The notes under the pieces: model-generated
What the model was told of the DNA's origin: nothing
What the model saw: the letters and a program-made list of their open reading frames with translations, nothing else
Database searches by the model: none
Translations under genes and position numbers: made by a program
Shown here: positions 23,919-49,900 of the stretch, piece after piece
How positions within the stretch are numbered: position 1 is the stretch's first letter
Layout of the letters: each line of letters opens with the position of its first letter
Assembly: GCA_030248225.1 (NCBI GenBank)
Contig: JASANE010010148.1
Coordinates: 24,866 to 88,865, forward strand
DNA: 64,000 bases
Direction: 5' to 3'
Source: Trileptium ribeirensis
Taxonomy: Eukaryota; Nematoda; Enoplea; Enoplida; Thoracostomopsidae

Positions 23919-24690
23919 ATAATATTATTGTCTTCTAACTAGTAATTGGTTATGAGATCGATGAATTTGAATTTTGTTCCGTCGCGGTTCATACGTTCCA
24001 CCTTGCAGCGTCGATGCTAAAAATATTATACAATTACTAAGTAGTAACTGGTTTTTTAAGTTAACTTTAACAAATACAATTATAAGTCGGGGTTATAATA
24101 TATTTTACCAAATAATGTAATTAACAATTATGAAGTGTACTTACCCTGCGAAACTCTTTGTTAAACTCGCGATCGAGTTCTGCTCCAGAAGAAACCACGA
24201 ATCTCGTCTCTACCAGATTCCCCTTAACGATCAGAACGACGCGTTCTTCGAGGGTGTTGTAATAACCACGAACACCAACGGGAACCTGGAAAGTGGCGAA
24301 GTCCACGCATAATATTATTGTCTTCTAACTAGTAATTGGTTATGAGATCGATGAATTTTGTTCCGTCGCGGTTCATACGTTCCACCTTGCAGCGTCGATG
24401 CTGAAAATAATATAGAATTACTAAGTAGTAACTGGTTTTTTAAGTTAACTTTAACAAATACAATTATAAGTCGGGGTTATAATATATACTACCAAATAAT
24501 GTAATTATTTAACAATTATGAAGTATACCTACCCTGCGAACCTCCTTGTTGAACTCGCGATCGAGTTCTGCTCCAGAGGAAACCACGAATCCCGTCTCTA
24601 CCAGATTCCCCTTAACGATCAGAACGACGCGTTGTTCGAGGGTGTTGTAATAACCACGAACACCCACGGGAACCTGGAAGGTCGCGAAGA
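23919..24690. repeat. 390-bp tandem duplication covering the left-arm gene
   Basis: Unit 1 (23919-24308) and unit 2 (24309-24690) both begin taatattattgtcttctaac. The unit covers exon 2, the intron and the 3' part of exon 1 of the minus-strand gene. Differences in exon 1 are mostly at third codon positions, and exon 2 differs by an in-frame 6-bp insertion. Confidence 0.88.
23939..24298 (-). pseudogene. 5'-truncated tandem copy of the left-arm spliced gene
   Basis: It contains an exon 1 fragment (about 24298-24145, donor gtaagt), an intron, and a complete exon 2 (24016-23939, acceptor atttttag, stop TAG). The first 19 or so codons, including the start, are absent because the duplication break fell inside exon 1. 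The remaining frame has no stop. Compared with the full copy I count six synonymous and three replacement changes in exon 1, and an extra Lys-Phe pair in exon 2. Confidence 0.65.
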
Positions 24691-27170: not shown

Positions 27171-27208
27171 TCTTTTTAAGAGTTTTATTTTAGAATCTCT
27201 TAAAAAGA
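27171..27208. promoter_or_regulatory. Perfect 12-bp inverted repeat ending at the polymerase ATG
   Basis: Left arm TCTTTTTAAGAG (27171-27182) and right arm CTCTTAAAAAGA (27197-27208) are exact reverse complements around a 14-base spacer. The left arm ends 26 bases before the ATG at 27209. The arms carry the same TTAAAA-type box found before other genes of the element. Confidence 0.7.
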
Positions 27209-30200
27209 ATGGCACTTCAATGTAATAAATGTAATAAGAGTTTTACTAGACGTGATCATGTTATACGTCATATTCACACAATTCACACTATGCAACTAAA
27301 TTGGTGTGAGCAGTGTGGTAAAGTGTTTTCACGACATGACGCGCTTATCAGGCACCAAAAGAACATTGTAAAGCGCGTCAACATAATACCACCGCAAGCA
27401 TTGTGGAAGCTCAAGCCTCCACCTCCACGAATATTGCTGATCATCTCAATAAATTATACCAAATGGGGCAGGAGATGGTCGACGATCAACACCAACGATC
27501 ATCAATTGTTGAGTAATGTGATTCCGTCACGCTACGACAATGGATCAAGGCGCTAAAAGGGTACCTATGCAGCTACTACTTGATATCCAAGCAGCACGTC
27601 AGAATCTTTCCGTTTTCCTGGCGCAATCAGGTCAGATGTTGGAGCGATTGGTCGAAAGTCAACTCTAGTGTGGAATCAAGCTCTGGATCTCCGTCAAATG
27701 TGTACTACATAAGCTCGACGGTACACAGTTGACTACACACATCAACAGCAAATCCCATGCAATCCTTCACGGGAACAACATCGATGTCGAGCTGACCGAA
27801 TTTTTCAACGAGTTGACGAAGAAATTGGACGATTTTCAACGCTTAGGATCCGGATGGGTCCTAGAAGACGTGCAACATGCTGATGTACATATCAGCAAGT
27901 ATCGACCGCTGTATGCGTCTTCCTATATCGAACTTCCAACGTCGATGCGCAACAAGCATGCGGTGCTCAATATCTAGAACCGCGATAATAAATGCTTTTT
28001 ATGGTCGGTATTGGCGGCGCTGCACCCTCTCAATTACAATCAACATGATGAGAGAGCATCAAACTATGAACCATATATTAATGAACTTAATATGAATGGC
28101 ATTGAATTCCTCGTCAAGATTAAAGATGTACCCCGATTCGAACGTCAAAATAACATTGCTATTAACGTATACGGACTGGAAGATGCTGTTATTTACCCGT
28201 TGTACATATTTAAATCCCTACATCAGCAATATATACACCTACTGCTGTATAAAGATCATTATTGTTTGGTTCGCAGTCTGGATTCGTTGTTAGATAACCA
28301 ACGTCGGCATAAAATCAAAAAGTACTTTTGTGATAAATGTCTCGTCCCGTGCTACAGTAAAGCTAAACGGGATGACCATTTACAACGGTGTCGACATGAT
28401 AAATCATCTCGCATCGAGACACCTCCATCCAATTCTCTCCAGTTTGCAAACATTCAACGAATGTAGCGATCCCCCTATGTCATATATGCTGATTTCGAGT
28501 GTATACTCGAAAAGGTTTCAACCTGTGAACCTTCAACATCCACCTCATTCATCAATCCCTACCAGCGTCACACTCCCTGCGGTTATGGACTTTTGGATTG
28601 TTTTGGTTGCTGTAACGATAAAGTGGAAATTGGCGAATCTCATATATATCGAGGTGACAATACAGTCAAACATTTCTTTAATAATGTAAAGGAACTTTCT
28701 GAGCAATATCAAAAAATACCTCATAAACCCTTAAACCTGTCTGATGTTGAACAGACTCAATTTAACGCTGCAGCAGAATGTTATTTGTGTAATAAAACGA
28801 TGGATTCTGACGATAAAGCGCGTGAACATTGTCATTTTTGTGGTCGCTACAGAGGTGCGGCTCACCTGAAATGTAACATTGGATATCGGCTTAATCGGGA
28901 TGTAACGGTATTATTTCACAATTTACGCAGATAAGGTGGACATCCCATAATGCAAGAACTTGGATCTATAAGTAAGAACAAGGGGTTGGAGATCGAATAT
29001 ATAGCGAAAGGGATGGAAGACTATATGACGTTTTCCATCAAACGGAAATCAAAGAAAGCTAGTAATCTGTTCATAATAGATGATGTGGATGATGATGATG
29101 AATGCTGGGACGAAGATGTGGACGGTGTTGATTTTATATTGGGCAACGATGATACCGACGACAATGAGGAGATTGGATGGAAGATCCGCTTTATCGATAC
29201 CATCCAATTCCTCCAATCATCTCTCCAAACGTTGGTCGACAATTTGAAGAAAACGGGTGTCGATCAATTTCAAGCTATAAAGCATGTATTTGGAGATGAA
29301 CTCAATTTAATGCTGCGTAAGGGTATATACCCTTACGAATATATGGACTCCGCTGACCGCTTCAACGAAACAGCGTTACCCCCTCAACAAAACTTTTATT
29401 CTAGTCTCACCGACAGTGGTATTGATGATGAAGATTACCAACAAGTTCAAGCTGTTTGGTGTAAAATGAACGTTCACAACTTAGGTCAATACCACGACCT
29501 ATACCTGAAAACCGACGTCCTGCTACTTCGCAACGTCTTTGAAAACTTTTGATTGTTTTATCTAGACAAATTCCATCTAGACACTGCTCATTACATTACC
29601 CTCCCCAGCTTCGCGTGGGACGCTTGTCTTATGAAGACAGGCGTCAACCTGTATCTCATCTCCGACCCCGACATGTGCGCGGTCTCCGTAATATCCCCCC
29701 GATATGCAAAAGCGAACAATCCATACGTTGACGGTTACAACGCTGCAGAACTCATCAATTATATAATGTACCTCAACGCAAACAATTTATACGGGTGGTC
29801 GATGGTAAAGAAACTCCCCTGTAACAAATTCAAGTGGCTCTCCCAAGCTCAAATCGGGTTAATCGATTGGAGCTGTGTTAACCCAAATGGTGATACTGGA
29901 TATATATTGGAAGTCGATTTGCGCTATCCATATCATCAGCACAACCTTCGTAACGATTACCCGCTGGCTCCCGAACGTTTAAAGACCTCCGATGCGATGT
30001 CGTCCCCATATTGCAGTGCGATCAAACAAGGTCGTTCTGCACCAGTTGAAAAACTGGTCCCCAATAACGATAAACAGCGATATATAGTTCATATTCGCAA
30101 CCTTCAACAATACCTTGCACTTGGGTTGGAACTCAAAAAAGTACATAGAGTAGTTTCCTTCAATCAATGTGCATGGATGGAACCATATATTAGTTTTAAT

Positions 30201-31062
30201 ACCGAAATGCGAAAGAACGCAAACAGTGATTTCGAGAAAGACTTGTATAAACTTCTCAACAACGCTGTATTCGTGCGAGCTTATGTAGATATTAAACTTA
30301 TAACCAACGAAAGGAAATTTGAAAAAGTTAGTGGTGAACCCCCGATACTCCATGTCCTCAATGTTGAACGAAGACCTGGTTACGGTTAAAATGCACCGCA
30401 AAACTATCAAACCGCGTAAACCCATATAATTTGGCTTTATGGTTTTGGGACTAATAAAGTTAATAATGTACAATTTCCATTACAATTATATAAAATCATT
30501 GTATGGTAATAAATGTAAACTACTATTTACGGATATTGACTCATTGTGTTATTCTGTGGAAACTAAAGACATTTACGAGGATATGATTGAAAACATAACT
30601 TTCTTCGATACCGCTGATCACCCACTATTCTCAACTACGAACAAAAAGGTGCTTGGGAAAGTGAAAGGCGAGACTGCTGGTAAACCCATCGAGGAATTTG
30701 TTGGACTGCGGTCGAAGATGTACAGTATAAAGTGTGGCGGCGTGGAAAAGAAGAGTGCAAAGTGTATAAAAAAGGGTGTTGTGAAAAAAGACATTCGTCA
30801 CCGAGACTATTACAACATTTTGTTCAGCGGTAATAACATGAAACATAAAATGAATATAATTCGCAGTCATAAAAATGTGTTGAATACGGTGACACTTAAT
30901 AAGACGAGCTTATCTGCATATGATGGTAAGAGATATATACTAGATGATGGAATCAGTTCTTATGCTTACGGACATTATAAAGTGTACGGTGTTAGCGATG
31001 AAGATTTTATTGAATTGTTGAGTGATATTTCTTATGATGATCTTATGCATATTGATGTTTAA
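27209..31062 (+). pseudogene. polB: Protein-primed family B DNA polymerase, broken
   Basis: This is the Polinton replication polymerase. It opens with two C2H2-like fingers (CNKCNKSF, CEQCGKVF), followed by an N-terminal region of about 400 residues. Exonuclease motif I (ADFE at 28488) comes next, then a Cys/His knuckle (HCHFCGRYRG) and the region up to the second exonuclease motif. The YHDLYLKTDVLLL and NNLYGW motifs follow, and finally motif C (TDIDS at 30529) with FVGLRSKMYS and YILDDGI. In-frame stops occur at 27975, 28464, 28932, 29550 and 30427. Frameshifts lie near 27360, 27520 and 30340. The catalytic Asp of motif A is Asn (29775-29777), and a short conserved block near 30270 is missing. 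The second exonuclease motif is also damaged at 28932. It cannot make a working enzyme as read. Confidence 0.95.
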
Positions 31063-31067
31063 TAAAG

Positions 31068-31077
31068 TCTTAAAAAG
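31068..31077 (+). promoter_or_regulatory. TTAAAA box, integrase gene
   Basis: TCTTAAAAAG, with 26 bases before the integrase ATG at 31104. Confidence 0.5.
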
Positions 31078-31103: not shown

Positions 31104-32124
31104 ATGAATTCTAAACTTAAAGATATATACTACAACCCTACAAGCATTGCAGGTTTTTTAACTGCTCCTAAACAACGAGGTTATAACGTAAAGTTTAATG
31201 AAGTACAAGATTGGTTACGTGGTCAGGAAACATATATTTTACATAGACCTAGAAGACTAAGATTTCAGCGTAGCCGTACTGTTGTTAAAGGTTTAAATGG
31301 TTTATTTCAGGTCGATTTAGCTGATATGAGTAACTTGTCATCATATAATGATGGTATAAATATTTACTTGTTGTTATTGACTGCTTTTCCAAATATGCTT
31401 GGGTTATACTTGTTAAGAATTACACAGCTTATACTATTCTAAATGCATTAAAATCTGTCTTTGAGCAAGTTAAACCTCAAAATTTTCGAACAGATAATGG
31501 TAAAGAGTTATTAAATAACCTGTTATATATATGATTATTGTAAGGAAAATGGTATAAATGTTTATACTGCTATGAATAAGGAAATAAAAGCAAGTATTGC
31601 CGAACGTTTTATACGTACTTTGAAATCAAAAATTTATAAATATTTAACAGCATACAATTCCCGTAGATATATTGATAATCTTCAATCACCTGTAGAAAGT
31701 TATAACAATACAGAAAACAGTTATGGTTTCGCACCTTCAAAGGTTGATAATGAGGATGAAATTCGGGAAAAGTTATTTCCAGCCCAAGATGTGGATGTTC
31801 GATATAAATTTCAACTAGGCGATATTGTACGTGTTTCCATTGAACGACTTCCTTTTGAACGTGGATTTCACCAGTTGTGGTCACGTGAAGTGTCCATACG
31901 AGCTTGAAGATGCAAATAAGGAAACTATATTGGGAAGATTTTATAAGCAAGAGATGCAAAACGTTGAAGTATTCGGTGATTCATATAAAATTGAGAAAAT
32001 TATATGCAAACGCAAGACCGGTACAGAGTACCTTGTAAAGTGGCTTGGATACCCTAAATCAATGAATTCATGGGTACATGAAAAGGATTTACAATCACCA
32101 GGGGTACAACATACGGCTACATAG
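31104..32124 (+). pseudogene. int: Retroviral-type integrase with chromodomain, broken
   Basis: The integrase inserts the element into host DNA. An N-terminal region leads to WLRGQETYILH and the rve catalytic core. The acidic triad is present: Asp in FQVDLADM (31314), Asp in FRTDNGKE (31493) and Glu in SIAERF (31602). The Arg-Tyr-rich YNSRRYIDNL segment and an SH3-like end (YKFQLGDIVRVS) follow. A C-terminal chromodomain carries YLVKWLGYP and NSWVHEKDL, which in other integrases guides insertion to chromatin marks. The frame shifts near 31425, 31530 and 31890, so the catalytic core is in at least three pieces. No intact HHCC finger is seen at the N-terminus. Confidence 0.93.
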
Positions 32125-32126
32125 TA

Positions 32127-32345
32127 GTAAATGTAAGGGATATACGGGTATAATACGTACCCGTATGGTACAGAATATAGGTACACAGTGGTAAATGTAT
32201 AGGGATATATGGGTACAATAGGTACCCGTAGGGGTACAACAGGAGTATAAAGTGGTAAATGTAGGGGATATATGGGTACAATACGTACCCGTAGGTGTAC
32301 AGAATAGGGATACACTGGGTTACAAAATAGGGGAACACAGGGGTA
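32127..32345 (+). repeat. Minisatellite, unit about 63 bp
   Basis: The units start gtaaatgta(agg)gatat at 32127, 32191 and 32254. They are GT-rich on this strand and contain tacccgta palindromic steps, then decay into ggggtacaa repeats. The Tyr/Pro-rich antisense frames at 31941-32362 are products of this array. Confidence 0.85.
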
Positions 32346-32365: not shown

Positions 32366-32375
32366 TCTTAAAAAG
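32366..32375 (+). promoter_or_regulatory. TTAAAA box, ATPase gene
   Basis: TCTTAAAAAG, with 26 bases before the ATG at 32402. Confidence 0.5.
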
Positions 32376-32401: not shown

Positions 32402-33112
32402 ATGGATCATGTATGTAACAAGTGCGAACGATCTTATACTTCCCGTCAACATTTACATAGACATAAGAAAAGTTGTACAGTACAATCTATATCAAGCTGT
32501 GATAAAGTACTTTTGCCTCAATAGTTACCGTTCACATGTGTTGTGAGTGGTCAAACTGGAAGTGAAAAAACACTTTGGATTTATAGATTACTTAAACACA
32601 TGTACTTTGATGAAAAGGTGTTGAAAATTTTATACTGTTACAGTATTTTTCAAGATATATATGCTAAAATGTTGAGATAAATGCCCAACTTTGAACTACA
32701 CGAAGGTATACCCTCTGAATTTCCCACAGGCGCAGGACACGTTTTATGTGTTGGACGATTTAATGATTGAGGCCTCAAATGATAAAAAGCTTGCAGCAGC
32801 ATTTTCCCGTATGCGTCATAATAAGTTAAGCACAATTTTTGTTACACATAATTTATATCATGAAGGTAAATACATGCGAACAATAACTCGGAACGCACAG
32901 TATATGGTTCTATTTCCCAATTTCATTGATACATACCTTGGGAAGGCAAATGTGGCCGGCAAAACCTGATTTTCTTTCAAGCATATTTGAGCAAGCAACA
33001 AGTGAATCGCATGATCATTTCTGGATCTAAAACCAGCAACATAGAGTGTGTTCAGGGCGAGACAATGTATTTTCCCCGATGACCGTCAGATATTTGTTTA
33101 TTCTTAAAAATG
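32402..33112 (+). pseudogene. FtsK/HerA-type packaging ATPase with N-terminal zinc finger, broken
   Basis: This protein is thought to pump the element's DNA into capsids. It starts with one C2H2/C2HC-like finger (CNKCERSYTSRQHLHRHKKSC). After an in-frame stop at 32522 comes the P-loop region, LPFTCVVSGQTGSEKTLWIY (Walker A at 32546-32572). The second Gly of the loop is Glu, which should impair ATP binding. Walker B is VLDDLM (Asp pair at 32754-32759), followed by the conserved TIFVTHNLYHEGKYMRTI. A second stop lies at 32678, a frameshift between 32715 and 32745, and further shifts near 32930 and 33030. The zinc finger may be a fused domain or a small separate gene. Confidence 0.88.
33102..33111 (+). 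promoter_or_regulatory. TTAAAA box, small basic protein gene
   Basis: TCTTAAAAAT, with 23 bases before the ATG at 33135. Confidence 0.45.
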
Positions 33113-33134: not shown

Positions 33135-33410
33135 ATGTCTCGAACGGTTGAACGTAATCTAACAGCAATGCAGTTTCTTGAGGGATCATCAGCTAAACTT
33201 ATATCTACTGTAATTAAAGTTGCACCTAAGTCTTTACTGAACACATTTGCAGACTTTGCACATAATATCATACAAAATACTAAAACTAAGAGTAAAGTTC
33301 TTAAAAGTATTGCAAGCAAACATATTTCAATTTCTAAAAAGAAAAAGTTACTTAAATCTACTGTGGTCAAGCATTTGATTAATTATTTTAATAAACATTA
33401 TGGCACGTAA
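33135..33410 (+). CDS. Small basic Polinton protein, intact
   Basis: A 91-residue open frame from MSRTVERNLT to a stop at 33408. The N-terminal half is mixed. The second half has the pattern LxSIxxKxxSxxKKKxLL, then a basic tail. The same pattern occurs in a short conserved protein next to the ATPase in other Polintons and their viral relatives, where its role is not settled; a core or DNA-condensing function is possible. The stop overlaps the start of the next gene by 11 bases, suggesting tight, virus-like packing. No break is visible, unlike the large genes around it. Confidence 0.75.
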   Translation: MSRTVERNLTAMQFLEGSSAKLISTVIKVAPKSLLNTFADFAHNIIQNTKTKSKVLKSIASKHISISKKKKLLKSTVVKHLINYFNKHYGT

Positions 33411-33798
33411 GATGGCAGTGGTACGGGTTAGCTGGTTGGATATAATTAAGAGTGGAGGATTACAGGATAAAGAACCAATAAAAAGTGAAGTGACAGTTTA
33501 TGAAACTAGAGAAAAACCAGAATTGTCGCTCATGTTTCCTAAAAATTTACGATCTAAAGCTAAATTAATGTTGAACAATATTAAAGATTTAAAACTAAAT
33601 GATAATAACGTAATTTATTCGGATAAGACTGTGGGTTTCAATATTTTTGATTTGGTAAAGTATTTTGTCTCAGATGTCACCTTTTCACCTCCAAGACCTC
33701 TTGACTCTGATAAATTTGAATCTCTTCTTAGAGGAGTTCCTTTGTCAGCTTTTGGAAGAGGCAGGAAAGGTAAAGTAGCTGAGCAGAAAACCAAATAG
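33400..33798 (+). CDS. Conserved Polinton protein of unknown function, intact
   Basis: A 132-residue open frame. After MARKMAVVRVSWLDI it has RSKAKLMLNNIKDLKLNDNN, a GFNIFDLVKYFVSD helix-like segment, a PPRPLDSDKFESLLRGVP stretch and a Lys/Arg-rich end. Proteins with this layout (a segment of Lys/Leu helices, a short beta turn with IYxxK, then DLVK and PPG/PxR motifs) follow the small basic gene in related elements. I do not know its role. It is read from the first ATG, which overlaps the upstream gene. Confidence 0.7.
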   Translation: MARKMAVVRVSWLDIIKSGGLQDKEPIKSEVTVYETREKPELSLMFPKNLRSKAKLMLNNIKDLKLNDNNVIYSDKTVGFNIFDLVKYFVSDVTFSPPRPLDSDKFESLLRGVPLSAFGRGRKGKVAEQKTK

Positions 33799-33841
33799 AG
33801 AACTTTGTGGGGTATTTACTAATATATAAAGGTTCACAAAC

Positions 33842-34247
33842 ATGGATATCATCATTACCGAAACTGTATCAAACAGTATTGCGTTAGCACTGATGGGAAA
33901 CCACTTGTTTTATTCCGATTTGGATGGAGTTTATTTAGTAATTTTAATATTGCTAAAATAACTATTAATGGAGTACCTACAACTGCGTTGAACAATGGTA
34001 TCAAAGCGAAAAGGCTCGGTACTTTAAGGACGATATCACATATTATCATATTATGAACTCTTATAAACAGTCAATACACAAGCGACGTGGACAACAGAAC
34101 GCAAATTTTGATATTGCAGAATGGATAGCAAATGACCGCACTGTAAACGTGATGAAAGTGGGGATGAAAGCGAAATTTCATCAACTACCTCACGTACGTG
34201 CTGCAGTAATGGGAACTGAAAATGCGATAATAGCGGAAGCGTCGTAA
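33842..34247 (+). pseudogene. Unrecognised Polinton gene, broken
   Basis: An ATG at 33842 (MDIIITETVSNSIALAL) opens a frame that stops at 33959. The coding-like sequence continues in other frames: one with VLFRFGWSLFSNFNIAK and NGVPTTALNNGIKAK, then one from about 33970 ending in NFDIAEWIANDRTVNVMKVG and AVMGTENAIIAEAS at 34247. At least two frameshifts are needed to link them. Its position between the small conserved gene and the TBP-like gene gives no clear clue. I found no cysteine-protease motif in any frame. The final stop (TAA) overlaps the ATG of the next gene. Confidence 0.5.
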
Positions 34248-34906
34248 TGGGACTTCTACTGGGAAATAAGAAAAAGCGTGTTCGATGCAAAAAGTCAAGA
34301 CGTGAGCGAATGGAAGGGACTAAACAAGTTGGGTGGGTTATGGATGGAAATTCTAGACAAAAACAAATGATAACAAATATGACAATAACATCAAACATTG
34401 GATGCAACGTTGATTTGTTATATTTATCTTGTATACTTGATAATTTTGACTCTGATATTTCAAGATTTAATGGTGGAATATGGAAATGCAAACCGAGGGC
34501 AACGATTTTACTTTTTTCCAATGGAAAGATAGTAGTACTGGGGGTGAAGTCAGAAGATGAAGCAAAAAAAGCACATTAGCATTTTTTGCTCATTTTGCAC
34601 ATAGTTTACGAAAAATTAAACGATTTGGGATATTTATGCATTCAAAAATTTGACGTACAACTTAAAAATGTTGTTGGAATGTTGAAATGTGAATTTAACT
34701 TAAATTTACCTTTCATATATGAAAGCCTAAGATCCAAATACACTGTAATGTATGAAGCTGAGCTGCATAATAGTATGAAACTTAAGGTTGAGAAGTGTGT
34801 GGGTTTGATGTATGGCATTGGTAATGTAGTTATAACTGGTTGTAAGTGTATAAATGATTTCTATTTGTCTTGCAATACTGTATATTATATCCTTAAAAGA
34901 CTTTAA
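34247..34906 (+). pseudogene. TATA-binding-protein (TBP)-like protein, one internal stop
   Basis: The frame spans 219 codons and a final stop, in one register, with a single internal TAG at 34577-34579. A basic N-terminal tail (residues 1-40) precedes two related repeats. Repeat 1 (about 45-110) has TSNIGCNVDL, a KPRATILLF strand and FSNGKIVVLGVKSEDEAKKA. Repeat 2 (about 120-219) has the linker helix EKLNDLGY, then FDVQLKNVVGMLKCEFNL, YTVMYEAEL and YGIGNVVITGCK, and ends YYILKRL. This order, with the FSxGKxVxTGxKSEExA signature in repeat 1 and a VGxxxxxF start and VVxTGxK strand in repeat 2, is that of the saddle-shaped TBP core of about 180 residues. It lies between two element genes on the same strand. 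It is strongly diverged from host TBP. Confidence 0.85.
34890..34899 (+). promoter_or_regulatory. TTAAAA box, minor capsid gene
   Basis: TCCTTAAAAG, with 26 bases before the ATG at 34926. It overlaps the last codons of the TBP-like gene. Confidence 0.45.
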
Positions 34907-34925: not shown

Positions 34926-35337
34926 ATGGAAGTTGTAGTTGTTTGCAATCAGAGCGAACCGGTTGTTGAGTTTCCGACAGAATTTTGCGCTACTAAAGAT
35001 AAAGTTTTAGATGCTCAACTTCCCACCAAATACAAAAATATTGAGGGTGGTGTTGTTGAATATTTCACAAATAAATCTTGGAAACGGTTTCCTATTGATA
35101 AAGGCTACTATAATATCAGCAGTTTGTTATCTTACCTAAACACATTTAGTCAAGACATTGAGTCTACAGTTTAACCCCATCTGTGATCGTGTCAGTGTAT
35201 ATATCTTAGGTAAGGCAGAAATTAAGATATTTCCGGAAATACAACAATTATTTGGATTCAACGCTTTACACCTGAAAAACGGTAAACATGTTGGCAACAA
35301 GTGTTTAGTTGGAATAATCTCCCATAAAGTTATGTGA
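34926..35337 (+). pseudogene. Minor capsid (penton-like) protein, N-terminal part
   Basis: The first segment (34926-35174, MEVVVVCNQSEP) is open for 82 codons. A +1 shift near 35170 is followed by more of the protein (RVSVYILGKAEIKIFPE, QLFGF) up to a stop near 35335. The pattern QLPxxYxxxGxxVE, YFTNKSW, then GYYNISSLLSYLN and LFGF, matches the single-jelly-roll minor capsid protein of Polintons and related viruses. The C-terminal part lies about 960 bp further on, beyond a block of foreign AT-rich DNA. Confidence 0.72.
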
Positions 35338-36560: not shown

Positions 36561-36766
36561 AAAAGGATGAATACAATCAGCAAATATCATTTTCAAAAAT
36601 GTTACCTCTATAGTTAAATTCGACAAAGATTGTAAAAGCAATTCCAATTGTCAAAAAAAGTCTTAAAAAGCATCGTAAACCAGCAAAGAAAAAGAAAATA
36701 TCAAACGTATGCGGCGTCGAAAAACATAATTGGCGCGGTGATGAGTACCCTGCTCAAGACTCAATC
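36561..36766 (+). other. Basic coding remnant between the capsid genes
   Basis: In the reading frame of the major capsid gene, a Lys-rich stretch (VKKSLKKHRKPAKKKK) leads into the capsid ATG without a stop from about 36620. Related elements often carry a small basic core-like protein here. It is too short and broken to name. A TCTTAAAAAG sequence at 36661 lies inside this frame. Confidence 0.35.
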
Positions 36767-37956
36767 ATGTCGACACAGTTGGTTGAAGTCGCTTGTGAAA
36801 CAACGTTACCAAGTAGTGATACTGACGATTCATTTCATTTTAAAATTGGTGAAAGCGCTTTTGATTTAATCGATTTATCTGAAATATTTGTTAATATTGA
36901 ATTTCAAATACTGAAAAGTGATGGTAAAGAGATTAAAGATGTAGCTCTTAAAATTGCACCATGCAATATGTATGGGTATGCACTGTTTTCATCCGTTGAG
37001 ATGAAAATAAATGGGGAACCAATAACTTTTAACCAAAAACATTACCCATGGACGTCATATATATTATACATATGAGTCAGCAACAAAGAAATCAATATTT
37101 ATCTGGATGTCTATAAACCGGATGAACCATATATGTTTGATGACCTAGAAGATAATGTAGGTTTCGTTTATCGAAATGCACTAGTAATGGGATCACAAAA
37201 ATGTGAAATGTATTTTCCACTAATTATCGATGCACTCCCAAATACTTACCACCAAAAACAAAATTGGAATTTAAATTTACACGCAGCACACCATCTCTAA
37301 TACTATTGCATGAACCAGCTAATAAATTTCAAATTAGAATTAATGATTTCAAGCTCTATATACCTAAAGCACGACTAACAAAGCAAGCTCTTGAAATTCG
37401 AGATAGAATAGGAGCTGTTATACTTCCTGCAATAAGATATAAAATACACTGTCTGTAAATAAAGGTCTACAAAACGTAGATTGGACAATCTTCGATGGTA
37501 TGTTACCTCGATCAATATACATTTGGGGAATAACACAGGACGCATTATACAGCTGCAAATGTGTTTAAGCTAACTTTACCTGATATGAATAGCTTTACAG
37601 TATTTACGAATGATGACAGATACGCATTTAAAATCTCTCTACCGTGTAAAGCTGGTAATGATATGAGGCTGTTTTATAATACATTATATGCGTTAAATGG
37701 TAGAATTGAAAACTTATGTTAGACTGAAGTTGGGTTTACATATGGTGCAGGATATCAAATATTTTGTATAGATTTAAGTAAAGATCACAGTAGTGATTGT
37801 AATTATATTTCAAACCCACCAGATGGACAAGTAAGACTATCAATAGATTTTGTAGAGGAATTGAAACAAGCAATTGTAATATTTGCTATGGGAGAGTTTA
37901 TCTTTGAACTACATATTAACTCAAATAGGGAAGTGTTTTGGAATAAAATGCTTTAA
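36767..37956 (+). pseudogene. Major capsid protein (double jelly-roll), broken
   Basis: The first segment (36767-37075) has MSTQLVEVACETTLP, FKIGESAFDLIDLSEIFVNI, and a strand ending VEMKINGEPI with YPWTSYI. The order and spacing (a DLxxxxxxV strand, then SSVExxxNGxxI and YPxxxYI) are those of the Polinton major capsid protein. Later pieces are MEFKFTRSTPSLILLH (37264, another frame) and DLSKDHSSDC with QVRLSIDFVEEL and AMGEFIFELHINSNREV, ending at 37956. Shifts lie near 37065, 37260, 37445 and 37560, and a stop lies near 37722. The length of about 395 codons is somewhat short of the usual size. Confidence 0.85.
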
Positions 37957-46900: not shown

Positions 46901-49900
46901 ACAGATTAAATCCTTACTTCTGTCATTCAAGTGTCAGTTCAGGTACACAGACCCGAAGTAAAAACGACACAAAAATTTTATTTTCGAGGTAGCATGAAAA
47001 CATTTTAGCCAAAATGCTGTTTCAAACACAAAGTGCAGGGCGTCCCAAACTATGCCTCACCGGCATAGTGCCTCCTGACGTAAATCGACCCCGTACCACA
47101 TTCACCCTGGAATTTTTAAAATTCTCATGGGCAATTTTAAAATAGATTCTATACCTATTGTAGTCTATTATCATAACAACAAAGATCTAAAAATTGTCAT
47201 TTTATAACATTTGCCAATAGTGCCTGCAAAAGTGTTATTTGGCAAACAATTTTCCTAAAATTTTACTAATTGCAACATTTTTGGATCACCGTTTTTAATT
47301 TTTGCATTTAGCTAGCCCCACGCCTAAAGTTCTCCTGCCCTAAGTACCGGGAGGGTGTTTCCGCTCTCTCCTCTAGCTGAAATATGCCTAGCGAAAACCC
47401 AGATTGACATTACAGGTGGCAAGATGTCGATATAAGGTAGCGCGCGAGATGCCGCTTTGATAACAAACGGCTTCAAAATTATGACCCGTAAACATAGAAT
47501 AAAATTTATTATAGGAAAATACTTGTATGAATGTCCACGCCCGTAGTACAATATTGCTGATACTCACTTCATCCGAACCGCAGTGGGCCATGGCTCGCTC
47601 CGTTATTTCGACCAGCATCGCAAAGACTGTCTCTTGAAGTGAAAAACACAAATCTGCCACCGTGTAAGCTTTGTCACAATCAGTTTCGTTTAACAATTTG
47701 GGCGCTTTGTCTTCAATGAACGACAACAAACCAGAAAACGATACGTCCATACCCTTAACACCATAAGGCAGTGCCAGAAATTTGCAACCTTTTTTCGCTT
47801 CTTGTTCTATATTATACCCAGGAGATGGGTCATTCGAGAGTCGGATGGCTCTGGCGAAGCGATCCAGGCAATTTCCCACAGCTATATCGATAGTTTCACC
47901 AAATATTCGGTACCTTCGCTCGAGGTAGGCAACGATTTGAGTATTGCCGCCACTAACATACAGAATTACAGGATTTTTGGCACCGGTAACTAAGCGTCCC
48001 ATTTCAATATGACCAATGCAGTGGTTGACAGCAAGAAGAGGCTTGTCTAAGAGGTAAACAAGTTAAAATCAAAATTGTGTTAGCACTTAATTGTACAAAG
48101 TCGACATCAATAATTAGCTGTCTGTCCTCTAATATTCGATCAAACTATTGCAACATGGAATGTTGCGGAACCAGGGAGCGCCGGATTTCGCAAAAGGTAG
48201 ACATGAAACAAAGGCACCGTCTCCCGTTCAACCGACAGCCATTGAAATAAAAAATATTAAAATTTAGGATTTCTAATAAATAGTTAAAAATGGCGTCAAA
48301 ACACTGCAATGAGTGTACCTCGATATTAAGGTTAAAAACTACTTTTAAGTTGCTTTTTACGTATTTAAAATTTAGCCAGAGATTAGCACTGATATTTCAA
48401 CTGAGAAGAGATTTTAGCGTTGTAAGCAAACATTTGAATTGTGGAATTTGACCAGGAGAGCCAAAAATTTAGCCCGGGCTAACATAAGAGGGGCACCTGA
48501 TTTTCGTGAGGTGGAATTGAAAATTTTCGAAAAATGTTAATAAAGCCCCCACCCCACTTTGAAGAACGCAGGTACTTTTCTGAATCGACATGAACAGCCA
48601 CAATCGCACATCACGATACTGTAGAACGACAACAATACTTAATTACAGATACGACTAAACAGCAAAATCCAAATGGCGAAATTCTGCTTGACCGCAATCA
48701 ATCCCAACTGTAATTCTATAAAATTTGAAATGTCTTTAATTGCATCGAAATCGATCGTAATTTCGTTTAATTTCGACCGATCACATTTCGTTTATATTCG
48801 GGCAACCCGTACGACATACTGCAATTTACTTGACTGTCGTGAACCACGAGCTAGTTATAAAATTACTATGTAAATGTTCAGCATGCTTCTTCACAAGGTC
48901 CACTAAGCGAATATACCGTCAATGTTACGTTACAACTACTATTATAAAGAGCTAAAATGTCAGTCGTTTGGTTCATGACATTAATGCTAACTGTGGTTGC
49001 TATACGTCAATATGTTGAACCAGAAATAAAAGTGCAAAATAATCGATTAAGATGTCGTTAGATTTCGATCAAAAGAATTTCGATCGATTTATACTTTAGT
49101 GCAATTTGAATAATTTTTCTATTTTATAAAATTTCGATTAGTTCTGTGTAAGCGAAATTACGATTGCGATAAAATAAAATTTTGATTGATTGCGATTAAA
49201 CGAGATTTCGACTGATTATGAGTAAACGAAATTTCGATTGACTGCGATTCCATCTTTCGACTGTGCTTATTTATGAACGGGACTGTATCTGCAACTCTGT
49301 GTAAAGCTAAGCGTCAGCATCGATTTAAATAATTTACACAATCTAAAACACAATGAATGCTCGCGTCAAGAAACCTAAATAGAAAATTACGGTGTTACTG
49401 GAACAGAAAATGGCACCGAAAATCTGATTCTACTCACACGTGGTCGTAGCTAAACAGACGCCATTAATCAAAACTGAAATCATATCTGCAAACAAGGTAA
49501 AAAACACCGGAATGTTTTTACTACGAAATTGCAATTTAACACTAGGCAACGTTAGGTTGTCCCCTTAAATTTGGGCAAAAAAATTTCTAAAACATAAAGG
49601 CATAATATGGTTTTAATTACGTTTTTCAAAAATTCATACAAAAGGATCACACTATCTTCGAAATGGTTTTCAAATTTAAAAAAAATTACTCCAAAGCTGA
49701 GCAACAGTACGCGCCACGACCGCCACCGTTGTAAGCGGAGCCCCCATTCCAGGACCTTTCGTAAAACAAACGATATCGATTTGTGTTCTTGGATCGCGAA
49801 TTTTTGCTTCGACCAAAGCTTGTCGAAGTACCTAAAATTAGTGTCCGTCTGCAGCAAGGAAAAATTGTATCAGTCCGCGTCCAAATGCAACCTCGTCTGG

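Follow-up and report, generated by a model that had tools for sequence, protein, structure and literature searches.

Can a mobile DNA element possess a TATA-binding protein (TBP) of its own and, if so, which promoters would such a factor serve? The question is raised by a locus of the nematode Trileptium ribeirensis, in a stretch of 64,000 nucleotides (contig JASANE010010148.1 of assembly GCA_030248225.1, positions 24,866 to 88,865 of the forward strand) that is called the window hereafter and is counted from its first letter. By translation of its open reading frames (ORFs), the frame 34247-34906 (+) encodes a two-repeat TBP in two pieces, surrounded by the genes of a Polinton-like element both in the window and in copies fetched from the same genome, in agreement with an earlier note on this DNA which had placed a TBP-like transcription factor inside a Polinton. 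Judged by its sequence, the window frame belongs, as a decayed copy, to a multi-copy family of TBPs carried by such elements, and its fixed place and inheritance with the elements mark TBP as a core gene of this lineage. The element TBP has evolved under purifying selection. At a probability of roughly 0.6, the comparison furthermore points to a mechanism in which the element TBP would read a private TATA-like box and the host TBP would start the unit of the NADAR and TBP genes; the identity of the protein as TBP and its core-gene status are rated far higher than this mechanism as a whole.

TBP in Polinton-like elements

Both pieces of the window frame separately exceed the gathering cut-off of the Pfam TBP family (PF00352; 22.9 bits), piece 1 with an E-value of 2.3e-13 (50.2 bits, residues 42-109) and piece 2 with 2.4e-12 (47 bits, residues 26-108), which bears out the two related repeats that the earlier note had read in this frame, as well as its single intervening TAG, the sole stop between the pieces. 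A sequence search of PDB with each piece alone led to TBP chains (best E 1.9e-17 for piece 1 and 2.4e-07 for piece 2). For piece 2, an AlphaFold model built with eight viral TBPs as alignment reached a pLDDT of 82.9, and its Foldseek comparison with PDB gave, by entry titles, TBP or TBP-holding complexes in the top 44 rows; the predicted fold is the TBP saddle half, the model of piece 1 being weaker (pLDDT 67.6). A chance match to TBP was considered and rejected on the Pfam scores of both pieces and the box counts in random segments given below. Close relatives of either piece were found neither in a set of 5.8 billion proteins nor in viral contigs.

The nearest of 20 copies fetched from the genome, the intact locus L034, is 78.5% identical to piece 1 over 107 amino acids (aa) and 86.7% identical to piece 2 over 105 aa. 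This copy also corrects one detail of the earlier reading, as the basic stretch ahead of the first repeat (34247 to about 34366), taken for a tail of the protein, is probably no TBP tail: its equivalent in L034 falls within the 3' end of NADAR, which is read in another frame. The end of the frame at 34906 and the flanking element genes on the same strand had been given correctly, the gene directly upstream being a broken NADAR (Table 1).

In the genome from which the window comes (687 Mb, 20,229 contigs), the Pfam TBP profile gave 975 candidates, of which the best 150 were scored; 149 of these single-repeat matches are free of stops, and two are exons of the host TBP, one of them the top match, both ordinary TBP in sequence. 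The fetched loci (L021-L040) comprise 18 of a main clade and two (L039 and L040) of a divergent family, which show 28 and 31% identity to the main-clade copy L024 and keep the pairing of NADAR with TBP. One open frame runs across both repeats in all 20, and the intact TBPs of L025 and L040 score 110.2 and 99.4 bits against Pfam for the whole protein, in two stretches each. When the L040 TBP served as query, 77 of the best 150 among 645 candidates, counted by hand, covered 160 or more of its 173 residues in a stop-free frame, and 25 of these 77 are main-clade TBPs. Because so many copies are still intact, the earlier statement that the element "once" carried its own promoter-recognition factor is too weak in this word; the carriage itself holds, and recognition of promoters by the element TBP is supported indirectly by the private boxes described below.

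Genes follow one another in the usual order polymerase-like gene, integrase, ATPase, small ORF, NADAR, TBP, an ORF beginning with MEVV, putative capsid and a transmembrane (TM) protein. As a test of the place of TBP, copies were chosen by their putative capsid protein, for which the best 95 of 1618 candidates in the genome were scored, and about 1.2 kb was fetched at the expected TBP site of 20 such copies on contigs absent from the genome TBP list. A TBP match lies upstream of the capsid gene in 18 of the 20, in four of them (L055, L057, L064 and L074) a partial one; the earlier note had proposed a search for homologues at this position in other Polintons.

In L021-L040 the gene next upstream of TBP is usually NADAR, which often overlaps it. 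An ORF of at least 150 aa with the NADAR signature precedes TBP in 18 of the 20 loci and was not seen in L033 and L038; that of L022 stops early. Among the fetched loci, NADAR was run against Pfam for L034 (E 1.2e-35) and L040. From the NADAR stop to the nearest TBP Met, the distance ranges from an overlap of 134 nt to 2 nt apart in 15 of the 18 loci, and gaps of 86-350 nt occur in L022, L027 and L029. A fusion of NADAR and TBP, to which open frames of 267-408 aa had pointed, was rejected, as in the fetched examples (the 408 aa case lies outside these) the TBP frame merely extends upstream within NADAR in another frame. NADAR is highly multi-copy in this genome (150 of 2317 candidates scored), and one locus of another NADAR class (L075, G000:C2766:3600-6600) has a frame of 257 aa with neither TBP nor private box within 3 kb, a single locus being too few for a control.

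Selection on TBP was estimated from the 190 pairs of the 20 genes, of which 29 were usable (dS below 1.5) and 161 too diverged. The ratio dN/dS lies between 0.13 and 0.26 in 21 of the 29 and between 0.28 and 0.61 in the remaining eight, which include both the closest pair (0.55, at a dS of 0.026) and the usable pair that is farthest apart (0.61). TBP and the putative capsid protein diverge in parallel, with a Mantel r of 0.935 (n=14, p 0.0001) and of 0.921 within the main clade alone (n=12).

For the tree, the 20 element TBPs, which are 22-97% identical to each other, were combined with the host TBP (represented by one exon), yeast and human TBP, TBPL1, an archaeal TBP and seven viral TBPs; the latter were drawn from 18 viral loci, 12 found via cellular TBPs and seven via the alignment of element TBPs with one shared, and the TBPs of nimaviruses, African swine fever virus (ASFV) and mirusviruses form no part of this tree. 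All 20 element TBPs lie on one side of a branch with a support of 100/100 and a stem of 1.35 changes per column, apart from the host TBP, in a tree with host and viral TBPs such as the earlier note had proposed. They are not grouped with TBPL1 in the best tree, and the approximately unbiased (AU) test does not reject a sister position to the host TBP (p-AU 0.17), to TBPL1 (0.37; 0.371 before rounding) or to the viral locus L002 (0.09). TBP may have been captured from a host in the distant past. Searches of viral contigs with other proteins of the element, namely a piece of the polymerase-like protein, a polymerase motif and the capsid alignment, the last of which gave 50 stretches, did not yield relatives either.

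Altered residues and a private TATA-like box

Residues of the 20 TBPs were compared at positions in yeast numbering. Repeat 2 of TBP, the C-terminal one, contacts the 5' half of the TATA box and repeat 1 reads its 3' end. On TATAAAAR, TBP kinks the DNA between base pairs 1-2 and 7-8 by two pairs of Phe, and the stirrup residues E144 and E146 of plant TBP touch TFIIB (PMC10005294).

In the element TBPs, N69 and F99 are kept in all 20 and F116 in 18, the two divergent copies having W instead, and the F207 position holds F in 16 of 20 and Y in four. The F190 position of the main clade is occupied by H in 15, Y in two and N in one of 18 copies, and by F in both divergent copies, so the element TBPs lack the full set of the four intercalating Phe (F99, F116, F190 and F207). 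All 18 main-clade proteins carry T at V71. On the side of TFIIB, E186 of the stirrup is found in 19 of 20 and E188 in all 20. The window copy conforms to this picture, with Phe at the F99 and F116 positions and Asn at N69 in piece 1 and, in piece 2, the stirrup pattern YE.EL, His at F190 and Tyr at F207. Binding of the element TBP to TATA DNA and TFIIB would be in keeping with the conservation of E186 and E188.

Upstream of most element genes a short TATA-like string recurs, here called the private box, which reads CTTAAAAR in main-clade copies and CATRAAAAG in divergent ones. Compared with TATAAAAR, the main-clade box differs at the first two bases; the divergent box differs at base 1 and, in many cases, at base 4. 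Both retain the AAAAR end. CTTAAAAR lies within 120 nt before 80 of the 89 main-clade starts of six gene classes (integrase 10/11, ATPase 14/16, small ORF 15/15, MEVV 17/17, capsid 16/16 and TM protein 8/14), mostly 33-41 nt and, for the small ORF, exactly 100 nt ahead of the ATG. Main-clade NADAR genes are different, with CTTAAAAR before three of 17 and TATATAA within 250 nt before 14 of 17. In the two loci of the divergent clade, CATRAAAAG precedes seven gene classes, NADAR included, in 14 of 14 cases. Several boxes sit in the coding sequence of the upstream gene, such as the one in the final codons of TBP, so that the string is preserved whether or not its surroundings are coding.

The box of the clade is present in 41 of 11,500 random 120-nt segments taken from the opposite strand and in 1077 of 11,500 taken from the gene strand, the latter count including the true sites; for TATATAA in random 250-nt segments, the counts are 881 of 11,500 on the gene strand and 395 of 11,500 on the other. 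Over the whole of the 18 main-clade loci, 139 boxes are on the gene strand and seven on the other, about 20 being expected from shuffles. Within the window, the interval 27-39 kb holds the stricter pattern CTTAAAAA?G six times and the looser CTTAAAAR eight times on the + strand and once on the - strand, and the 50 kb outside the element hold CTTAAAAA?G once (-) and CTTAAAAR five times on the + and ten times on the - strand.

Because the box had been noticed on the first set of loci, six later-fetched ones were tested, and L047, L048, L049, L051, L052 and L053 showed 10, 3, 8, 8, 7 and 7 boxes of their own clade on the gene strand, five of the ten in L047 being in a tandem repeat, and none on the other. 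Among the short stretches chosen by capsid, each of the 18 that have TBP contains one or two boxes, always on the gene strand, whereas the two that lack TBP contain no box.

A proposed two-step promoter code and its alternatives

These observations may be joined in the following way. In the main clade, the host TBP would fire the NADAR-TBP unit from the host-type TATATAA. The element TBP so made would bind the private box via its altered repeat 2 and recruit TFIIB, and thereby host RNA polymerase II, by the conserved stirrup. The other element genes would then be switched on, under a promoter code that is partly separate from that of the host. The match between protein and box in the main clade, where the protein is changed at the kink residue of repeat 2 and the box at its 5' end, is suggestive. 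The stronger claim that the code is self-contained, made up of a rebuilt reader of the 5' half, a box with C at position 1 ahead of most of the other genes and one host-type TATA switch ahead of the NADAR-TBP unit, with box and TBP having co-diverged into at least two codes in one genome, is one on which we would place even odds.

Several points weigh against this two-step code. Divergent TBPs retain F190 and have W at F116, yet the 5' end of their box is changed too, and the covariation of TBP type and box type has little power because it is based on one deep split between two clades. The order in which the host TBP acts first does not fit the divergent clade, because its NADAR has a private box and, in two of two loci, no TATATAA within 250 nt. 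CTTAAAAR itself might be weakly bound by host TBP. The box is found at only eight of 14 TM genes and is missing from one of 11 integrase and two of 16 ATPase starts; L038 has three boxes, and L023 has a single one and shows neither integrase nor ATPase nor capsid among its ORFs of 150 aa or longer. In L022 and L027 a private box precedes TBP itself, which suggests self-activation. Two of the 20 capsid-chosen elements (L056 and L067) gave no TBP match at the expected place. Finally, the box was counted on the same 20 loci on which it had been noticed, and the held-out set consists of six loci, all chosen by TBP and some of them close kin of the first set.

Control might have no two stages at all, with NADAR and TBP constitutive and all element genes firing together when chromatin permits, a possibility which is unlikely but fits the single box type at the seven gene classes of the divergent clade, NADAR included (two of two loci each). 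It leaves aside that the main clade separates NADAR, with TATATAA in 14 of 17, from the other genes with their private boxes.

A little less likely again, the element TBP may be selected but directed at the host, where it would sequester TFIIB or compete with host TBP and so damp host or antiviral transcription, the boxes being weak TATA elements for host TBP. CTTAAAAR is indeed near to TATAAAAR, a conserved stirrup along with changed DNA-contact positions is what a decoy would have, and viral use of host TBP is known (PMC11410667). Such a decoy, however, leaves unexplained both why one non-consensus box stands before most genes and main-clade NADAR usually has TATATAA, and why each of the two TBP clades has a box of its own.

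That the private box is read by another factor of the element, such as the C2H2-like stretch which opens the ATPase ORF, and that TBP is limited to some promoters or to a different step, for example replication or packaging, is decidedly improbable; the same elements do encode C2H2 stretches (by Pfam in the window and by eye in other copies), but the box is TATA-like in sequence and in position, mostly 33-41 nt before the ATG, as would suit a TBP. A recent retrocopy of host TBP or a TBP-related factor (TRF) in one element, with no role there, is scarcely credible and as a recent event is refuted, since it has nothing specific in its favour beyond the sister positions left by the AU test, and the long-stemmed 100/100 clade apart from host TBP, the spread of identities among 20 copies with low dN/dS, the co-inheritance with the putative capsid, the TBP matches in capsid-chosen elements and the ordinary host exons all speak against it; with a strong TBP match as well, what the earlier note had named as grounds for giving up its reading, the lack of a TBP profile match or a place inside the host TBP clade, was not found.

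The two-step code has its nearest counterpart in the vTBP of beta- and gamma-herpesviruses (KSHV ORF24, EBV BcRF1 and HCMV UL87), which likewise combine a TBP-type protein of their own with a variant box before the genes served, service by the element TBP being presumed here. In herpesviruses vTBP serves late promoters, where TATT replaces the early TATA, and uses host RNA polymerase II (PMC7498053). The box of the elements differs from TATT, and the proteins differ as well: vTBP is large (KSHV ORF24 extends to residue 752), with a TBP domain that was recognized by fold threading and an extra N-terminal domain that binds polymerase II, and it requires at least six viral proteins (PMC7498053), whereas the element TBP is a core of about 175-185 aa that is recognizable by sequence and is without a polymerase II-binding N-terminal domain of the vTBP type. 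The resemblance would be one of convergence rather than of demonstrated membership.

TBP homologues are also known from other eukaryotic DNA viruses. They occur in 59% of mirusvirus genomes (PMC10132985), in seven families of large double-stranded DNA viruses, three known and four added (PMC11410667), such as ASFV with B263R, and in nimaviruses with wsv303 (PMC10871703). Like the element, these viruses possess a TBP homologue, but they are large, and the cited texts, as excerpted, describe no matched private box for them. Promoter motifs have also been reported for virophages.

With respect to the altered Phe positions, the element TBPs may be compared with TBPL1 (TRF2). TBPL1 has His at the F190 position, as do most main-clade copies, and V and W at the repeat-1 Phe positions, where the element TBPs differ, F99 being kept in all 20 and F116 in 18. 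Absence of the full intercalating set is shared with TRF2, which ranks as a TBP paralogue despite the loss of an intercalating Phe (PMC10005294).

The element resembles Polintons/Mavericks in its integrase with chromodomain, its A32-like ATPase and its putative capsid gene. Neither TBP nor NADAR is known as part of the usual Polinton gene list; a literature search in titles and the beginnings of abstracts, which covered few subscription papers, made no Polinton or Maverick TBP apparent and found no paper on Polintons together with NADAR.

In eukaryotes, the large number of genes served by a general promoter-recognition factor means that its DNA target is very seldom altered. The TBP described here has diverged inside a selfish element of which many copies are intact; its likely target box can be seen before most other element genes, and a sister clade shows a second variant, which makes a change of TBP specificity directly testable. 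The code might offer Polinton-like elements a way to hold back capsid expression until they have produced their own factor, as a small parallel to herpesvirus late transcription.

Gene map of the window

All recognizable element genes of the window are on the + strand (Table 1). The element is called Polinton-like because the polymerase and capsid names are putative and no convincing terminal inverted repeats were found around the window copy. Pfam, PHROG and PDB searches gave no PolB match for the large polymerase-like ORF, in which putative PolB motifs were seen by eye. An endonuclease VII domain lies within this ORF according to Pfam, at 28467-28931 in the window (E 4.2e-05) and at L023:6645-9896 (-) (E 3.7e-05). 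Only the chromodomain of the window integrase exceeds the Pfam cut-off; in the intact L034, the integrase matches rve (E 1.9e-13) and Chromo (E 2.1e-11), and the ATPase exceeds the cut-off for Pox_A32 (E 1.4e-06). The gene at 36614-37956 and its relatives are those which we take to encode the major capsid protein, in Polintons a double jelly-roll protein; intact relatives gave no match in Pfam or PDB and none in PHROG better than E 0.26. The MEVV gene, possibly for a minor capsid protein, had no Pfam match in the window or in intact relatives.

Table 1. Element features in the window; private boxes are given with the gene that follows them
Feature	Position	Strand	Basis or remark
Private box CTTAAAAA, immediately ahead of C2H2, the first ORF of the polymerase-like region	27199..27206	+	Motif scan
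C2H2, endonuclease VII and protein-primed PolB-like region, broken	27209..31062	+	C2H2 E 5.5e-11; EndoVII E 4.2e-05
Private box CTTAAAAA, 35 nt upstream of the integrase start	31069..31076	+	Motif scan
RVE integrase with C-terminal chromodomain, broken	31104..32124	+	Chromo E 2.5e-09 (~31.8 kb)
Private box CTTAAAAA, before the ATPase gene	32367..32374	+	Motif scan
A32-like packaging ATPase, pieces	32525..32969	+	Weak, under the Pfam cut-off in the window
Private box CTTAAAAG, 100 nt before the P15 start	33300..33307	+	Same distance in 15/15 main-clade copies
Small ORF P15 (MARKMAVV...), intact, adjoins NADAR	33400..33798	+	ORF reading
Host-type TATA box (TATATAA) before the NADAR-TBP unit	33823..33829	+	Motif scan
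NADAR gene remnant, two frames, directly upstream of TBP	33842..34247	+	Pfam NADAR E 1.1e-15 on 33969-34244
TBP-like gene, piece 1	34247..34576	+	Pfam TBP; repeat 1 ~34370-34573
TAG stop separating the two repeats	34577..34579	+	ORF reading
TBP-like gene, piece 2	34580..34906	+	Pfam TBP; repeat 2 ~34655-34903
Private box CTTAAAAG, before the MEVV gene and within the TBP 3' end	34892..34899	+	Box at 17/17 main-clade MEVV starts
MEVVVV... gene, two frames	34926..35337	+	ORF reading
Putative major capsid protein gene, several broken frames	36614..37956	+	ORF reading, place in element
Private box CTTAAAAA, before the putative major capsid gene	36662..36669	+	Box at 16/16 main-clade starts

In many main-clade copies, for example L034:6630-7358 and L025:6705-7481, the ATPase ORF opens with a C2H2-like stretch recognized by eye (MDHVC..C....RQHLHRHKK). 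At 32137-32318, ahead of the ATPase gene of the window, a 54-nt repeat containing GTACCCGTA units is present in three imperfect copies, and GTACCC repeats that resemble them precede the ATPase in some other copies. The product of P15 has a relative of 81% identity in a JGI metagenome protein (P0002, on a contig of 968 bases), by which sequence elements related to that of the window occur in environmental DNA. Outside the element, a unit of about 388 nt is repeated head to tail at 23919-24689, its two copies being 93-100% identical, and an ORF at 47388-48002 (-) with a TsaD/Kae1-type domain (Pfam E 2.1e-31) is probably a host exon.

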